DNA of 64,000 bases from Bifidobacterium pseudolongum subsp. globosum. Lineage in GTDB: Bacteria > Actinomycetota > Actinomycetes > Actinomycetales > Bifidobacteriaceae. The first letter of the stretch is position 1; each line of letters starts with the position of its first letter. Location: contig NZ_JGZG01000002.1 in assembly GCF_000741295.1 (NCBI RefSeq), positions 1 through 64,000 on the forward strand, in the 5' to 3' direction. Below the pieces are notes generated by a model. The model had not been told where the DNA came from. It did no database searches and worked only from the letters and a program-made list of their open reading frames with translations. A program made the translations under genes and the position numbers. This document shows positions 28,408-40,070 of the stretch, one piece after another.

Positions 28408-29658
28408 TCAGCCGAGGATCCCGTCGACGAACGATTCGGGGTCGAACGGGGCCAGATCGTCGGGGCCCTCGCCCACACCCACGAGCTTGACCGGCACGCC
28501 GAGTTCCTTCTGCACGGAAATCACAATGCCGCCCTTCGCGGAACCGTCGAGCTTCGTCAACACCACACCGGTGATGCCGATCGCCTCGGCGAATACCTTG
28601 GCCTGCGCCATACCGTTCTGGCCGGTCGTCGCATCGAGCACGAGCAGCACTTCGTCCACGGGCAGGTTCTTTTCGGTCACGCGGCGGATCTTGCCGAGCT
28701 CGTCCATCAGGTTCGCCTTGTTCTGCAGGCGGCCCGCGGTGTCGATGATGAGCACATCCACGTCGTCGTCCTTCGCTTTCGCGGCGGCTTCGAACGCGAC
28801 CGAGGCCGGATCGGCGCCCTCTTTGTCGGAGCGCACCACAGGCACGTCCACTTTCGCGCCCCACGTCTCGAGCTGGTCTGCGGCGGCGGCGCGGAATGTG
28901 TCGGCGGCGCCCAGCATCACGGTCTTGTCTTCCGAGACGAACAGGCGGGCGAGCTTGCCAGCGGTCGTGGTCTTGCCGGTGCCGTTCACACCGACCATGA
29001 TGATGACACTCGGCTTCTTGGCGCCCGGCTTCTCCGCCTCAAGGCTGCGGTCCACGTCGGTGCCCACAAGGGCGAGCAGTTCGCCGCGCAGCGCCTCACG
29101 CAACTGCGTGGGGTCGGTCTCGCCGGTCACGCGCGCGTCGGTGCGCAGTTGCTCCACAAGCTGTTCGGAGGCCTCGGCGCCCACATCGGCGAGCAGCAGC
29201 GTGTCTTCCACATCCTCCCAGTCGGTTTCCGACAGGTGGTCCTTCGCCAGAATGTTGAACAGCGCCTTGCCGAAGGGGTTGCTCGACTTCGACAGGCGTT
29301 CGCGCAGGCGCTGCAGACGGCCCTTCTTGCCTTCCGGCTTCTCGACCGGAGGCACCGGTTCCTCGACGACGCCGGTCTCCTCGACCGTTTCGACTTCTTC
29401 AACGGGCGCTTCAGCCGGCGGCGCAAGCGCGTCCGGCGTCTGTTCGGCCGGGCTCCGCTTGGCTTCGGCCGGTTCGGGCGCCGTGGGCCTCTGCGCCGCG
29501 CGTTCTGCTGCCAGACGCTCGTCGGCCTTCGCCTTCGCGGCCTCTTGTGATTGCTGTATGTTCTTCTTACGTGAGCGGTCCATCCAGATGCCGCCCACAA
29601 TGAGCAACACCGCGATGACCACGACGGCAATGATGCCGTACACCATGTTGGTATCCAT
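28408..29658 (-). CDS. ftsY: Signal recognition particle receptor FtsY
   Basis: SRP-GTPase docking ribosome-nascent-chain complexes at the membrane. 416 aa from ATG 29658. N-terminal membrane helix (VYGIIAVVVIAVLLIVGGIWM), an acidic Glu/Pro-rich A domain, then NG domain: GVNGTGKTTTAGKLA, DTFRAAAADQLETW, DTAGRLQNK and TKLDGSAKGG. The purine tract GGGAGG is one base from the ATG. TAGGCT ends seven bases before it, so leaderless initiation is likely. It faces the divergent TetR gene 75 bp away. Confidence 0.95.
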   Translation of the reverse strand: MDTNMVYGIIAVVVIAVLLIVGGIWMDRSRKKNIQQSQEAAKAKADERLAAERAAQRPTAPEPAEAKRSPAEQTPDALAPPAEAPVEEVETVEETGVVEEPVPPVEKPEGKKGRLQRLRERLSKSSNPFGKALFNILAKDHLSETDWEDVEDTLLLADVGAEASEQLVEQLRTDARVTGETDPTQLREALRGELLALVGTDVDRSLEAEKPGAKKPSVIIMVGVNGTGKTTTAGKLARLFVSEDKTVMLGAADTFRAAAADQLETWGAKVDVPVVRSDKEGADPASVAFEAAAKAKDDDVDVLIIDTAGRLQNKANLMDELGKIRRVTEKNLPVDEVLLVLDATTGQNGMAQAKVFAEAIGITGVVLTKLDGSAKGGIVISVQKELGVPVKLVGVGEGPDDLAPFDPESFVDGILG

Positions 29659-29733
29659 GCCTCCCAGCCTAGACCATTGCGCGCACACCGCCGCGGGGCC
29701 GGCTGGGCGAGAGGGTGTGAAAGACTGGAGGGC

Positions 29734-30441
29734 ATGGCCAATGCTTCCAGAATGTCTTCATACCAGCGGCGCGAACAGCTCATCTGCATCGGGCGCGCGC
29801 TCTTCGCCGCCAAGGGCTTCGAGTCGGTCAGCGTCGAGGAGATCGCCGCGACCGCCAAAGTGAGCAAGCCGATCGTCTACGAGCATTTCGGCGGCAAAGA
29901 GGGACTGTACGCGGTCGTCGTGGACCGCGAGATGCGCGCGCTCAACGACATGCTCATCGGAGCGCTGCGCGCCGACGACGTGCACCCGCGGCAGATCGTG
30001 GAGCGCACGACACTCGCGCTGCTCACCTACATCGAAGAGAACACCGAGGGATTCCAGGTGCTCGCGCGCGATTCACCCACGACCGACCCGACGAGCTCGT
30101 TCTCGTCGTTGCTCGGCGACGTCTCCACGCGCGTGGGGCAGATCCTTGAGGAGTGGTTCAAACGGCAGAAACTGCCCGCGAAGAACGCGCCGTACTATGC
30201 GCAGATGCTCGTGGGGCTCACCGTATATACAGGCCAGTATTGGGCCGACCGGCGCAAACTGAGCAAAGAGCAGCTCGCCGCGCTGATCGTGAACCTGGCA
30301 TGGAACGGACTGAGCCGCATGGAAGCCAAGCCGACCCTGCGGTTCGAAGACGGCAAGGCCACCAAAGCGGCCGCCGCCCCCGAACCCGAGCACGAACCCG
30401 CTGAGGAGCCCGCTACTTCATCCAGTGATCAGACATCTTGA
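29734..30441 (+). CDS. TetR/AcrR-family transcriptional regulator
   Basis: DNA-binding repressor, 235 aa. The helix-turn-helix ISVEEIAATAKVSKPIVYEHF-type region is at residues 26-55: GFESVSVEEIAATAKVSK, then PIVYEHFGGKEGLYAVV. The ligand-binding C-terminal domain and an Ala/Glu/Ser-rich tail follow. AAGACT ends seven bases before the ATG and GGAGGG abuts it. The last 29 bp overlap the end of the convergent peptidase gene. Target and ligand are unknown; ftsY is divergent and an unlikely target. Confidence 0.85.
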   Translation: MANASRMSSYQRREQLICIGRALFAAKGFESVSVEEIAATAKVSKPIVYEHFGGKEGLYAVVVDREMRALNDMLIGALRADDVHPRQIVERTTLALLTYIEENTEGFQVLARDSPTTDPTSSFSSLLGDVSTRVGQILEEWFKRQKLPAKNAPYYAQMLVGLTVYTGQYWADRRKLSKEQLAALIVNLAWNGLSRMEAKPTLRFEDGKATKAAAAPEPEHEPAEEPATSSSDQTS

Positions 30442-31972
30442 ACGCGTTGTGCATCAGATTGCTCGCCTCGTAGAGCACCTCGTTGAGCAGCCGCTGCGTG
30501 CGTCCCTGCAGCCAGAGCGCCATCTGATCGTTCGCCTCGCCGAGCGCGAGCCGCACCGCCGCCATGCGCTCCGTGCCGTTGTCGCCTTCGAGCGCGTCGG
30601 CGTCGTCGGCGATCGACGCGTCGGTGTGCTTGACGAGCGCGTGACCGTAGGTCTGCACATCCTCGATGTACTGTTCGATCAGGTTCATCGTGCCATACCA
30701 GTGCGCGTCGGCGATCACCGCGATGATGCGGTTCGTCCAGTACAGCGAATCGGTTGACGCGTCCACGCCCGGCGTATCGCGCAGGTACGCGGGCGTGTCC
30801 ACGACGTTCGCATAGAACGGTGCCGGCGCGGTGAACGCGCCGCAGCCGTACGAGATCCACATGACCGACCGGTACGTCTGAGCCGCGTACGGGCGGATCT
30901 GCATGCACACCATGTGCCCCGTGCGGTTGATGCCGATCGGGCGATAGGCGTGGCGCGTCACCGCCGTGCCCGTGGTGCCGTACGGGTCGTACGGCGTGCC
31001 GTCGAAATGCGAGCCCATCAGGAACGCCACATCCTCGATGGTGATCTTGCGCTCCGGCTCGCGGCACCACGGCAGGTCCTGGGAGGCGGGCGTGTGGCGG
31101 GCCTGCGGCGAATCCCAGTCCTCGCTGGGATTGAGATGGCGCTGCATGTACCATGCGCGTGGCGTGTTGTAGACCGCGTCCTTCGGCGTGGCCGTGCCGA
31201 ACGCCGAACGCGGGTCGAAGTGCGCGGGGCTGCCTTCGAAACTCGTCATGTCGCGGTCAAGGTGGTTCCCTTCGATGAATTCGCGCAGGTCGGCGCTGCA
31301 CATGTTGTTGCGGCGCTCGCTGAACGCGTCGTCCAGGTCGAGCGAGTCGATGCCCAGCTGGTTGGGAATCGCCGCGTAACAGTCGTCGGGCACGCGGCGC
31401 GCCATCCAGTGGTGGCCGCCGATCGTCTCGACATACCAGATTTCGTCGACGTCGCTGATGATGATGCCGTTCGACTCGTACGTGCCGACTTCCTCAAGCA
31501 GGCGGCCGAGGCGCTCCACGCCTTCGCGCGCGGTGCTGATATATGGCAGCACGATCGTGATGATGTCCTCTTCGCCGAACCCGCCCGGCGTCTCCTCCAC
31601 ATACCCCGGCTCGCCCGGCTCGCCGACGGCCGGTTTGAGCGCCACAAGTGGATCGGCCGCAAGCACGCGCGGATTGACGGCGATCGTCTCGGTGGCGCTC
31701 ATCGCCACATTGTGTTCGTTCACACCGGCCTCCGCGAGCACGCCGCGGTTCGGCACCACATTGGGCACGATGCTGTAACGGCACGGGTCGGCGGGAAGGT
31801 CGAGCTCCATGTGGCTGATCACGCTGCGGTAATGGCGCGGCTGGTCGGCCGGCGCCACGGCCACGAAATGCTTGGGGTCATAGGTGCCGCTGCCCGAATC
31901 GTCATTGCGGGCGATGATGGTGGATCCGTCATAACTGGCTGATTTGCCGACTAACAATGTGGTGCAAGACAT
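30413..31972 (-). CDS. pepD: C69-family dipeptidase
   Basis: N-terminal-nucleophile dipeptidase, 519 aa. Starts MSCTTLLVGKSASYDGSTII: after removal of Met-Ser the Cys3 nucleophile would be exposed, as in the PepD family. RNDDSG and ARDGTT-like TGTAVTRHAYRPIG fit the family. No signal peptide, so cytosolic. The start at 31972 is favoured because the nucleophile must be close to the N-terminus and a TAACGT box ends seven bases before it. Likely trims dipeptides from casein or other peptides. Confidence 0.9.
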   Translation of the reverse strand: MSCTTLLVGKSASYDGSTIIARNDDSGSGTYDPKHFVAVAPADQPRHYRSVISHMELDLPADPCRYSIVPNVVPNRGVLAEAGVNEHNVAMSATETIAVNPRVLAADPLVALKPAVGEPGEPGYVEETPGGFGEEDIITIVLPYISTAREGVERLGRLLEEVGTYESNGIIISDVDEIWYVETIGGHHWMARRVPDDCYAAIPNQLGIDSLDLDDAFSERRNNMCSADLREFIEGNHLDRDMTSFEGSPAHFDPRSAFGTATPKDAVYNTPRAWYMQRHLNPSEDWDSPQARHTPASQDLPWCREPERKITIEDVAFLMGSHFDGTPYDPYGTTGTAVTRHAYRPIGINRTGHMVCMQIRPYAAQTYRSVMWISYGCGAFTAPAPFYANVVDTPAYLRDTPGVDASTDSLYWTNRIIAVIADAHWYGTMNLIEQYIEDVQTYGHALVKHTDASIADDADALEGDNGTERMAAVRLALGEANDQMALWLQGRTQRLLNEVLYEASNLMHNAFKMSDHWMK

Positions 31973-36192: not shown

Positions 36193-37270
36193 ATGCGCAA
36201 CATATGGTTCATTCTCAAGCGCGACCTCAAGCGCCTGGTCCGCGTACCCACGGCATGGATCATCATCTTCGGCCTCACGTTCATCCCCGCGCTCTACGCA
36301 TGGTTCAACATCGCCGGATTCTGGGACCCGTACGGCAACACCTCCGGCATCCGCGTGGCGGTGGCCAACGAAGACAAGGGCGCGGACAGCTCGCTGCTGG
36401 GCAAGATGAACCTGGGCGACCAGATCGTGGGCTCCCTCAAGAAGAACCACCAGCTCGGATGGCAATTCATGACCAAAGCCGAGGCCATGGAGTGCGTCGA
36501 ATCGGCGCACTGCTACGCCGCCATCGTGATCCCCGGCGACTTCAGCGAATCCATGTCCAACGTGCTCACCAGCACCAGCACCCGGCCGCAGCTCGACTAC
36601 TACGTCAACGAGAAGGCGAACGCCGTGGCCCCCAAGATCACCGGCGTCGGCGCCACCACCGTGGACCGCCAGGTCAACAGCACCTTCGTCTCCACCGCCA
36701 GCAGCGTGATCAGCGGCATCGTCAACACAACCAACACGTCGATCAGCGAGCAGGCCGACAGCTCCGTGCAGCAGGCGCTCGCGCAGATCACCAAGACCAA
36801 AAACAATCTGGGCAAGACGCGCACGATGATCGCCGACCTGCGCACCACGCTCGCGGGCACAAAAGAGAAAACCGACGCGGCCAGCAAGGCGCTCGACGGC
36901 GTCACCACAGCCGCCAACACCGCCGGCACAGGGCTCGCCACCGCCTCCGACCTGCTCACGAAAACCCAGTCCGGGCTCAACGGCTTCGCCGCGAACACCT
37001 CCGACCAGCTCGACAAAGGCAGCAACCTGTTCCTGCAGGCGAGCGGCCAGGCCACAACCGACGCCACACGCATCACGAACGGCATCCTCACGGCCAACGG
37101 CGCCGCCGGCACCGCGCTCAACAACATGACGAGCGTCAACAACGACGTGGCGCAGCTCATCGAAGACCTCAAGAACCTGCCGGACAACCCGTTCAACGAA
37201 GACATCAAGCAGATCGTGGACGACCTGACGCGCGAGAACCAGAAGGCCGCCGCCACGCTCGCCGCGGCAA
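36193..37270 (+). pseudogene. YhgE/Pip-family membrane protein, 5' fragment
   Basis: N-terminal half of a YhgE/Pip (phage-infection-protein-like) protein: one membrane helix (TAWIIIFGLTFIPALYAWF), then the extracellular YhgE/Pip N-domain (GIRVAVANEDKG, PQLDYYVNEKANAVAPKI) and a helical Ala/Thr-rich region. The family normally continues to about 700 residues with C-terminal membrane helices; here recognisable sequence ends near residue 360. The frame then runs out of character (Arg/Ala-rich) to a stop at 37407. From about 37274 another frame carries the tail of a different protein, so a deletion fused two genes. AGGAG before ATG 36193. Secretion or export function is probably lost. Confidence 0.75.
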
Positions 37271-37273
37271 AGC

Positions 37274-37561
37274 GGCGTGCAGGTGCACGGCACGCGGCGC
37301 GAACAGTCCCAGCAGATCGCCGACGAACTGCATCTCGACCCCGCGCCGCTCAACGAAGCAGTGCGCGAGGCGGATTATGTGGCGTTCTCGGGCGTGCCGG
37401 CGGATGAGCGCGCGGCCGAGGCATACTGGAAGCGCATCGACGCCCTGCGCGGCAGCATGCTCGCCGCGCTGCCGCGGTGGCGCCGCTGGCGCACGCGGCT
37501 GTCGTTGCGCGACCTGTGGCACAGCCGCCAATCAGGCACACGAGGCAAGGAGCAGCGATGA
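37274..37561 (+). pseudogene. 3' fragment of a probable transglutaminase-like (TgpA-type) gene
   Basis: A frame different from the YhgE fragment encodes GVQVHGTRREQSQQIADEL, ADYVAFSGVPADERA and WRRWRTRLSLRDLW, resembling the cytoplasmic tail of transglutaminase-domain membrane proteins that precede PP2C genes in bifidobacteria. No start or N-terminal domains remain; a GTG at 37277 is the first candidate. It ends with the ATGA overlap into the PP2C gene, so the original operon coupling is kept. Parent identity is inferred from context and tail style. Confidence 0.5.
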
Positions 37562-38550
37562 ACGAGGCGATTGCGGTGGGCGCGCTCACCGATGTCGGCA
37601 TGCGGCGTGCCACGAACCAGGACGCGTTCCTTGCCGAATGCGGCGTGTATGTGGTGTGCGACGGCATGGGCGGCGAGTCGGGCGGCGAGCGTGCGAGCGC
37701 CATCGCCGTCGAGGAATTCACGCGTCTGGCGGCGGACGGCGAACGCACACGCGCCGCCATCGATGCGGCCGTGCAGCGCGCGCAACGCCGTGCCCGCGCG
37801 CTCGGTGTGGAGCTCGGCGGCATCGCCGGCACCACAATCAGCGGCATCGTGCTGCCGCAGTGGGGCGCCGGCGCGGCGACGAGCCCGCTGGCCGCCCCGC
37901 ACGGCGCGCATGCAGCCGCGCATATGCCGCATCGCGGCGCCGAATCGGTCATCGACGACTGGGACGCCACACAGCCGGGCGCCACGCTCGACGACAGCAC
38001 GCTCACCGGCGAGTGGCAGGCGGCGCGCGGCGGCTGGGCCGCCCCATGCTACGTCGTCAACATCGGCGATTCGCGCACCTACCATATGGAACGCGCGGAT
38101 TCAGCGGTCATGGCGTGGGACGCGCGCACGTTCACACAGCTCACGCATGACCATTCGAGCAGGCAGGAGGCGATCGACGCCGGCATGGGCGAAGCCGAGG
38201 CCGGGCGCCGGATCGCGCGCAACATCATCACACGCTGCATCGGCGCGCCGCACGGCACCCACGCCGACGTGTTCGTGGCGCCGGCGCACGGACGGTTCAT
38301 TATGTGTTCCGACGGGTGCCATGGCGAGCTCGAAGACGCTACGATTGCCTCTATCGCCGCCGCGCACAACGACGCGGCGGACGCGGCCCGTGCGCTCGTG
38401 CAGGCTTCGCTCGACGCGGGCGGCAGTGATAATGTGACTGTGGTGGTCGTGGACATACCGGCCGACCGCGCCGCGCTGGGCGCGCGTCTGGAGGACGACG
38501 AGGACCTCGGCGACGTGCATGGGCTCGACGACGCCACGGTGCAGACCTGA
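37558..38550 (+). CDS. PP2C-family Ser/Thr protein phosphatase
   Basis: Metal-dependent phosphatase of 330 aa. Motifs: DVGMRRATNQDAF, VVCDGMGGESGGERAS, NIGDSRTY and GGSDNVTVVVVD supply the metal-binding Asp residues. Between GTTISGIVLPQWG and the NIGDSRTY motif there is an insertion of about 55 residues (Ala/His/Asp-rich) not typical of PstP. AAGGAG lies five bases before the ATG, which overlaps the stop of the truncated upstream gene. Genes for a variant LRR protein and an FHA protein follow. Confidence 0.9.
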   Translation: MNEAIAVGALTDVGMRRATNQDAFLAECGVYVVCDGMGGESGGERASAIAVEEFTRLAADGERTRAAIDAAVQRAQRRARALGVELGGIAGTTISGIVLPQWGAGAATSPLAAPHGAHAAAHMPHRGAESVIDDWDATQPGATLDDSTLTGEWQAARGGWAAPCYVVNIGDSRTYHMERADSAVMAWDARTFTQLTHDHSSRQEAIDAGMGEAEAGRRIARNIITRCIGAPHGTHADVFVAPAHGRFIMCSDGCHGELEDATIASIAAAHNDAADAARALVQASLDAGGSDNVTVVVVDIPADRAALGARLEDDEDLGDVHGLDDATVQT

Positions 38551-38665: not shown

Positions 38666-39385
38666 ATGGTGAGTTACGACGAGGCGGTTGCAATCGTGCA
38701 GGACCCGCAGGCGGACCCCGTGATGCTGGCCAAAGTGGCCTACGAGAACCCGGAGTTCGGCGCCAACGTGGCGGCGCACCCCCGCGCCTACCCGGGTCTG
38801 AAGCGCTGGATCGCGCAGTTCGGCGACGAGCGCGCGCGGCGCATGGTGGCGCAGCAGGGCTATGAGTCGCCGCTCGGCCCCATCGAGGACCGTGAGGAAG
38901 CCGCGCAGCCGGAACCGGCCGTGGCGGCCGAGGTCGCCGAGGTGGCGCAGACACCGGCATCGTTCGAACCGCAAGGGTATTCGGGCGTGGAGATGCTCGA
39001 TGAGCAGTTCAACAGCCTGCCCGACGAATCGGTGCTGCCGTCGTTCGTCACCTCCGCCGATGTGCAGGCCATGGCGCACGACGCCGCGCAAAGCTCCCCG
39101 CAGGCTTATGAGCCGCAGCAGCCAGCCGAACAGTCGTACGACCCGGCGCAGCAGCAGGCGGCCACCGGCGCGCAGACCCAGCCGGCCGCCGCGAACGCAT
39201 ACGGGTTCACGGCGCAGCAAGCGGCCACCACCAACGACCCGGCCGTCATGCAGCAGATCGCGCAGTATGCACCCGAACTGCATGCGGCGCTCGCCGGCAA
39301 CCCCTACCTCTACCCCGAACTGCGGGCATGGCTCGGCATGTTGGGCAACCCGGCCGTCAACGAGGTCCTCTCGCACCGCCAGTGA
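38666..39385 (+). CDS. Variant leucine-rich-repeat protein
   Basis: 239 aa. N-terminal repeat pair DPQADPVMLAKVAYENPEFG with ANVAAHPRAYPGLKRWIAQF, and a second at the C-terminus, DPAVMQQIAQYAPELHAALA with GNPYLYPELRAWLGML. These match the variant leucine-rich-repeat domain common in bifidobacteria. Between them is a Gln/Ala/Pro-rich linker of about 120 residues. No membrane segment. AGAGAGGA lies about nine bases before the ATG. Likely a protein-protein adaptor in the PP2C/FHA neighbourhood. Confidence 0.75.
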   Translation: MVSYDEAVAIVQDPQADPVMLAKVAYENPEFGANVAAHPRAYPGLKRWIAQFGDERARRMVAQQGYESPLGPIEDREEAAQPEPAVAAEVAEVAQTPASFEPQGYSGVEMLDEQFNSLPDESVLPSFVTSADVQAMAHDAAQSSPQAYEPQQPAEQSYDPAQQQAATGAQTQPAAANAYGFTAQQAATTNDPAVMQQIAQYAPELHAALAGNPYLYPELRAWLGMLGNPAVNEVLSHRQ

Positions 39386-39452: not shown

Positions 39453-40070
39453 CTAGGCCTGTTCGAAATCGAAGATCTGGTCGCCGATGCGGATGCGCGC
39501 GGGGGCGTGCAGCTGCACGGGCGCGCCTTTGAGCACGGGTGTCTCGGTGTCTCCCGCGTAGATCGCGGTGCCGTTGAGCGACCCGAAGTCCTCGAGCCAC
39601 ATCGAACCGTCCTCGTCGAAGCTGATCGCCGCGTGGTTGCGCGAGACCGTGCGCGTGGGGTCGATCAGGCGCACCGATTTCGCGCCCGCCGGGATGTCCT
39701 GCGAGGGACGGCGGCCCATCAGCACGCCCATGTCCACGAGGATCGTCTGCCCGGTGATCTCGTTGGTCATGCGGTAGTTCGCGTGCGGCTGCTTCATGAA
39801 CGCCGTGGAGAGGACCGTGCCGTCCCATTCCTCGCTGCCCTGCGCGTCGGCCGCCGCGGTGTATTCGAGGTCGGCGCCCTGCGGGATGAACGAATCGTCG
39901 TCGAGCTCGGCCGCGTGCGCGTCGGCCGTCTGGAGCGGTTCGGGCGCGGCCGCCCGGGCCTGGGAGTGGTCAGTTTGGAAGTCGTCGATGGCGCCGAGGA
40001 TCTGGCCGGCGGCTTCGTCGTCGGCGTACCAGCCCGGTTCAGGCGCGGGAGGATAAGGTAACTTCTGCAT
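39453..40070 (-). CDS. FHA-domain protein
   Basis: 205 aa. C-terminal forkhead-associated domain: MGRRPSQDIP, RTVSRNHAAISFDEDG (phosphothreonine-binding Arg, Ser, His), EDFGSLNGTAIYAG. It binds phosphothreonine on partners, presumably substrates of a Ser/Thr kinase that the nearby PP2C opposes. The N-terminal 100 residues are acidic and disordered. Sits convergent to the LRR gene and shares a bidirectional terminator. Confidence 0.88.
   Translation of the reverse strand: MQKLPYPPAPEPGWYADDEAAGQILGAIDDFQTDHSQARAAAPEPLQTADAHAAELDDDSFIPQGADLEYTAAADAQGSEEWDGTVLSTAFMKQPHANYRMTNEITGQTILVDMGVLMGRRPSQDIPAGAKSVRLIDPTRTVSRNHAAISFDEDGSMWLEDFGSLNGTAIYAGDTETPVLKGAPVQLHAPARIRIGDQIFDFEQA

Follow-up and report, generated by a model that had tools for sequence, protein, structure and literature searches.

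An apparent YhgE-transglutaminase fusion in Bifidobacterium pseudolongum subsp. globosum as a probable false join in a draft assembly

In the deposited genome of Bifidobacterium pseudolongum subsp. globosum, a gene for a YhgE/Pip protein runs directly into the tail of a transglutaminase gene, which raises the question of whether the junction arose in the bacterium or in the assembly. Strain LMG 11569 (JGZG00000000) of this subspecies comes from bovine rumen (PMC5540593). The strains sequenced in that study were assembled with MIRA (PMC5540593), as the LMG 11569 draft may also have been. The genome comprises 1,935,255 bases in 26 contigs, and the window, the whole stretch of 64,000 nucleotides that was analysed, corresponds to bases 1-64000 of contig C2 (177,628 bp). 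The two parts of C2 on either side of the junction are referred to as C2-left and C2-right.

At the junction, one reading frame (36193-37407) follows YhgE up to '...QKAAATLAA', turns Arg-rich beyond 37266 and continues as AKRRAGARHAARTVPADRRR... until its stop. A second frame, from a GTG at 37277 to a TGA at 37561, reads MQVHGTRREQSQQIADELHLDP... and overlaps the start of a PP2C gene as ATGA (37558-37561). The features of the locus are as follows.

36193..37266, plus strand: 5' part of yhgE1 (YhgE/Pip), 358 codons; native continuation at C7:367-2058
36901..37266, plus strand: 366-bp stretch with two copies in the assembly (window and start of contig C7), by identity to C7:1-366
37246..37263, plus strand: 18-bp word GCCGCCGCCACGCTCGCC at the junction, common to yhgE1 and the tgm of strain 2093B
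37266..37267, no strand: breakpoint between C2-left and C2-right, where identity to C7 ends and tgm-like sequence comes next
37267..37561, plus strand: 3' tail of tgm, the PFNA-cluster transglutaminase gene; native upstream part at C6:1-2032, minus strand
37558..38550, plus strand: prpC, PP2C-type phosphatase, starting in the ATGA overlap (PF13672 PP2C_2, E 2.5e-6)
36193..37407, plus strand: spurious chimeric reading frame, which leaves YhgE at 37266 and then reads tgm DNA in the wrong frame

The resemblances on the two sides of the junction go beyond chance: residues 1-364 of the junction ORF match YhgE of relatives, and the tail after the junction matches the transglutaminase C-terminus in 36 of the 59 genomes searched. 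As one contiguous match, the junction was found in none of the 111 other genomes of the genus that were searched. The frame at 36193-37407 is a product of the join and not a gene. The initial annotation had correctly seen that YhgE is joined here to the tail of the gene that precedes PP2C, with its ATGA overlap, and the features are as it described them; its breakpoint at about 37270-37274 has to be moved to 37266/37267, since 37266 is the last base identical to contig C7.

The remainder of yhgE1 is found on contig C7 (30,994 bp). C7:1-366 is 100% identical to window 36901-37266, after which the YhgE frame goes on, and joining 36193-37266 to C7:367-2058 yields a single stop-free frame of 921 aa that matches the YhgE of subsp. 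pseudolongum DSM 20099 at 94% identity over its whole length. The part of YhgE1 within the window shows 93% protein identity to DSM 20099 and 91% to strain 2093B. Upstream of the repeated 366 bp, positions 36193-36900 occur only once in the assembly. Directly after yhgE1 on C7 comes yhgE2, as it does in DSM 20099 and 2093B. Near the right end of C7 lies an intact-looking transposase gene of 447 aa (L027 9403-10746, C7 about 29403-30746), putatively ISL3-type as judged by eye, which may be the reason why the contig stops there.

The remainder of tgm lies on contig C6. When the DSM 20099 transglutaminase is used as the query, residues 2-676 are located at C6:5-2032 (minus strand, 65% identical) and residues 683-780 at window 37265-37558. 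C6 carries the first 676 residues of the protein, with the Transglut_core domain in this part (PF01841, E 2.3e-14, Pfam), and ends 4 nt into the 18-bp word. The same contig encodes a MoxR-type AAA ATPase (C6:3384-4355, 76% identical to DSM 20099), and DUF58 is placed between MoxR and tgm by the alignment of C6:47-4321 to DSM 20099 (L029). Further along, C6:5844-10535 aligns at 74% to an approximately 2000-aa Fn3/Ig-like gene of DSM 20099, with the domain assigned by eye and position. After tgm, the window holds prpC (37558-38550), a hypothetical gene (38667-39385) and fha (39453-40070, minus strand), an order conserved in two relatives (L028 and L029), in the first of which the Ser/Thr kinase gene pkb2 is also found upstream of fn3. 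The bifidobacterial PFNA cluster has been described as pkb2-fn3-aaa-atp-duf58-tgm, followed by a variable part with prpC, a hypothetical gene and fha (PMC6803598, PMC8430577). If C6 is joined to C2-right, the order of the cluster is ordinary from fn3 onward. The absence of the MoxR, DUF58 and transglutaminase genes noted in the initial annotation holds next to the junction only; genome-wide, all three are present on C6.

Relatives show how these pieces fit together. On a single contig of 2093B, C6 is reversed, and C6:1 (at 87550) meets the window from 37246 onward (at 87547); the tgm of this strain is open, encodes 817 residues and has the same ATGA overlap with PP2C. In DSM 20099 as well as in 2093B, C2:1-37266 follows the far end of C6 in collinear arrangement and is itself followed by C7. 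Read from this synteny, the native order is the reverse complement of C2 from 37267 on, followed by C6, C2:1-37266 and C7. C2-left and C2-right are thus natively about 139 kb apart (101,657 + 37,266 bp and a small gap) and oppositely oriented. In both relatives the end of C6 (C6:101657) falls about 25-55 bp before C2:1, in GC-rich sequence. Because C6 and C2 are separated at these other ends too, the assembly has small GC-rich dropouts, and the start of the window is one such gap and no natural boundary. When the ends of C2, C6 and C7 were compared with each other, no further overlaps were found.

The breakpoint coincides with a short shared word. In 2093B, GCCGCCGCCACGCTCGCC lies within tgm (L090 1501-1518), at the very point where C6 ends and C2-right begins. 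No longer word is common to yhgE1 and the 2093B tgm; in a chance control, the shared word reached 18 bp in 1 of 400 randomly drawn pairs of segments of similar length. The assembly holds two copies, on C2 and C7, both with yhgE1 upstream, and a native tgm copy is absent from it. From 2093B we infer that the strain's own tgm carries the word as well, and that this copy would have been lost in the break. Relative to a clean exchange inside the 18-mer, the join has one extra nucleotide. When a slip of 1 nt is allowed, the shared sequence amounts to about 21 bp.

The junction is most probably a false join in the draft assembly at the 18-bp word, a reading to which we assign a probability of about 0.88 on the strength of sequence comparison. 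The initial annotation had named an assembly join as its alternative, and this is where the evidence leads: the native continuations of both sides are present elsewhere in the assembly, on C6 and C7, and adjoin in relatives. An assembler would have used the word to overlap reads whose ends lie in yhgE1 with reads that begin in tgm. Reads spanning the tgm site would have been missing or misplaced, probably through a failure of coverage there, and C6 would have been left ending at that site. The remaining native yhgE1 reads would have been built into C7, which would be why the 366 bp are repeated on that contig. Three points speak against a misjoin, namely the reliance on 2093B for the word in the native tgm, the 1-nt offset, which could come from error-tolerant read overlap, and the length of the join, since assemblers do not usually join on 18-21 bp except where coverage is poor.

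Among the alternatives, a real inversion of about 139 kb, covering C6 and C2-left in a part of the cultured cells, fares best, although we consider it unlikely. It would have arisen by recombination between copies of the 18-bp word in yhgE1 and tgm that are inverted to each other; C2 would then show the chromosome after the inversion and C7 the chromosome before it. In the native order the two copies do face opposite ways, an exchange between them would give exactly the C2 junction, the shared word is located at the breakpoint, and the original form is also present, as C7 indicates. However, the reciprocal junction between reversed C6 and C7 is absent from the assembly, C6 stops 4 nt into the word, and both yhgE1 and tgm would be broken. 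Moreover, 18 bp is short for RecA-dependent exchange, which counts against an inversion. A programmed or phase-variable inversion would require both reciprocal junctions, and that between reversed C6 and C7 was not found in the assembly. That a fraction of the cultured cells carries the inversion of about 139 kb through the 18-bp inverted word, reversibly breaking the YhgE/Pip gene and the PFNA-cluster tgm, is quite improbable.

The initial annotation had preferred a deletion that removed the MoxR and DUF58 genes and most of the transglutaminase gene and fused yhgE1 to the remaining tail. The gene order within the window alone fits this proposal, but all the genes supposedly lost are present on C6 and the rest of YhgE on C7 of the same assembly. 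To save a deletion, C6 and C7 would have to be of contaminant origin, and the contamination estimate of the assembly is 0.1%. Close relatives carry the genes intact on both sides of the junction, the very observation that the initial annotation had named as refuting its proposal. The geometry is of the inversion type; in relatives the two sides face opposite ways, so that a simple deletion cannot join them, and this reading is highly improbable. The same low standing is given to a real duplication, with an extra partial copy of the 5' part of yhgE1 beside tgm and intact copies elsewhere: the 366-bp stretch does occur twice in the assembly, yet 36193-36900 is present once, the second copy of the 366 bp begins exactly at a contig start, and one copy suffices for synteny.

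Two further candidates were rejected. A tandem duplication or excised circle, suggested by same-strand tgm and YhgE in the distant genomes G002, G004, G008 and G015, was discarded as near relatives show the inverted orientation. The difference in identity to DSM 20099 between YhgE1 (94%) and the transglutaminase (58-65%) had suggested contamination or a chimera of two species; this is ruled out because 2093B matches both sides of the junction (DNA identity of about 92% for yhgE1 and about 96% for tgm) and because identity is low only within a bounded block.

This block is of interest in its own right. It spans about 23 kb, is sharply bounded and holds the PFNA cluster, extending in native order from about 40.2 kb down to 37.3 kb of the window and then from C6:1 to about 20.8 kb (L038, L104). 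Its DNA identity to DSM 20099 is about 74%, compared with more than 90% over most of the flanking DNA, and shorter patches of low identity follow farther along C6. The corresponding figure for 2093B is 94-98% throughout the block. Among the searched genomes, only two have a tgm of the globosum type; these two copies share 97% identity, and near relatives with full-length matches reach no more than 66%. The tgm of DSM 20099 is 81-85% identical to those of B. criceti, B. italicum and B. choerinum. As judged from these identities, the whole PFNA region of the globosum lineage looks like an allelic replacement from an unsampled source. The two subspecies differ by a published PFNA distance of 0.4054, which has been read as taxonomy (PMC6803598). 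Local replacement, if true, would explain this value without deep divergence of the genomes.

As deposited, contig C2 gives the impression that the strain has no intact tgm and that its YhgE is a fusion. Annotation or gene-loss surveys that use this assembly would inherit the error. The PFNA locus has served in published work on host-adaptation genes, and a truncated tgm would distort alignments.

The locus can be set beside three known systems. It resembles chimeric contigs from overlap-based draft assemblies in its overlapping contig ends, in a breakpoint within a shared word and in a join contradicted by synteny; it differs in the length of that word, which at 18 bp, or about 21 with one indel, is unusually small. 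Given that C6 and C2-right are placed together, fn3-like, MoxR, DUF58, tgm, prpC, hypothetical and FHA genes follow in the same order as in the PFNA cluster, whereas here the cluster is split over two contigs and its allele shows about 74% DNA identity to that of subsp. pseudolongum. Finally, yhgE1 and yhgE2 form a tandem pair of the YhgE/Pip type, the same as in relatives and without difference once the misjoin is discounted.
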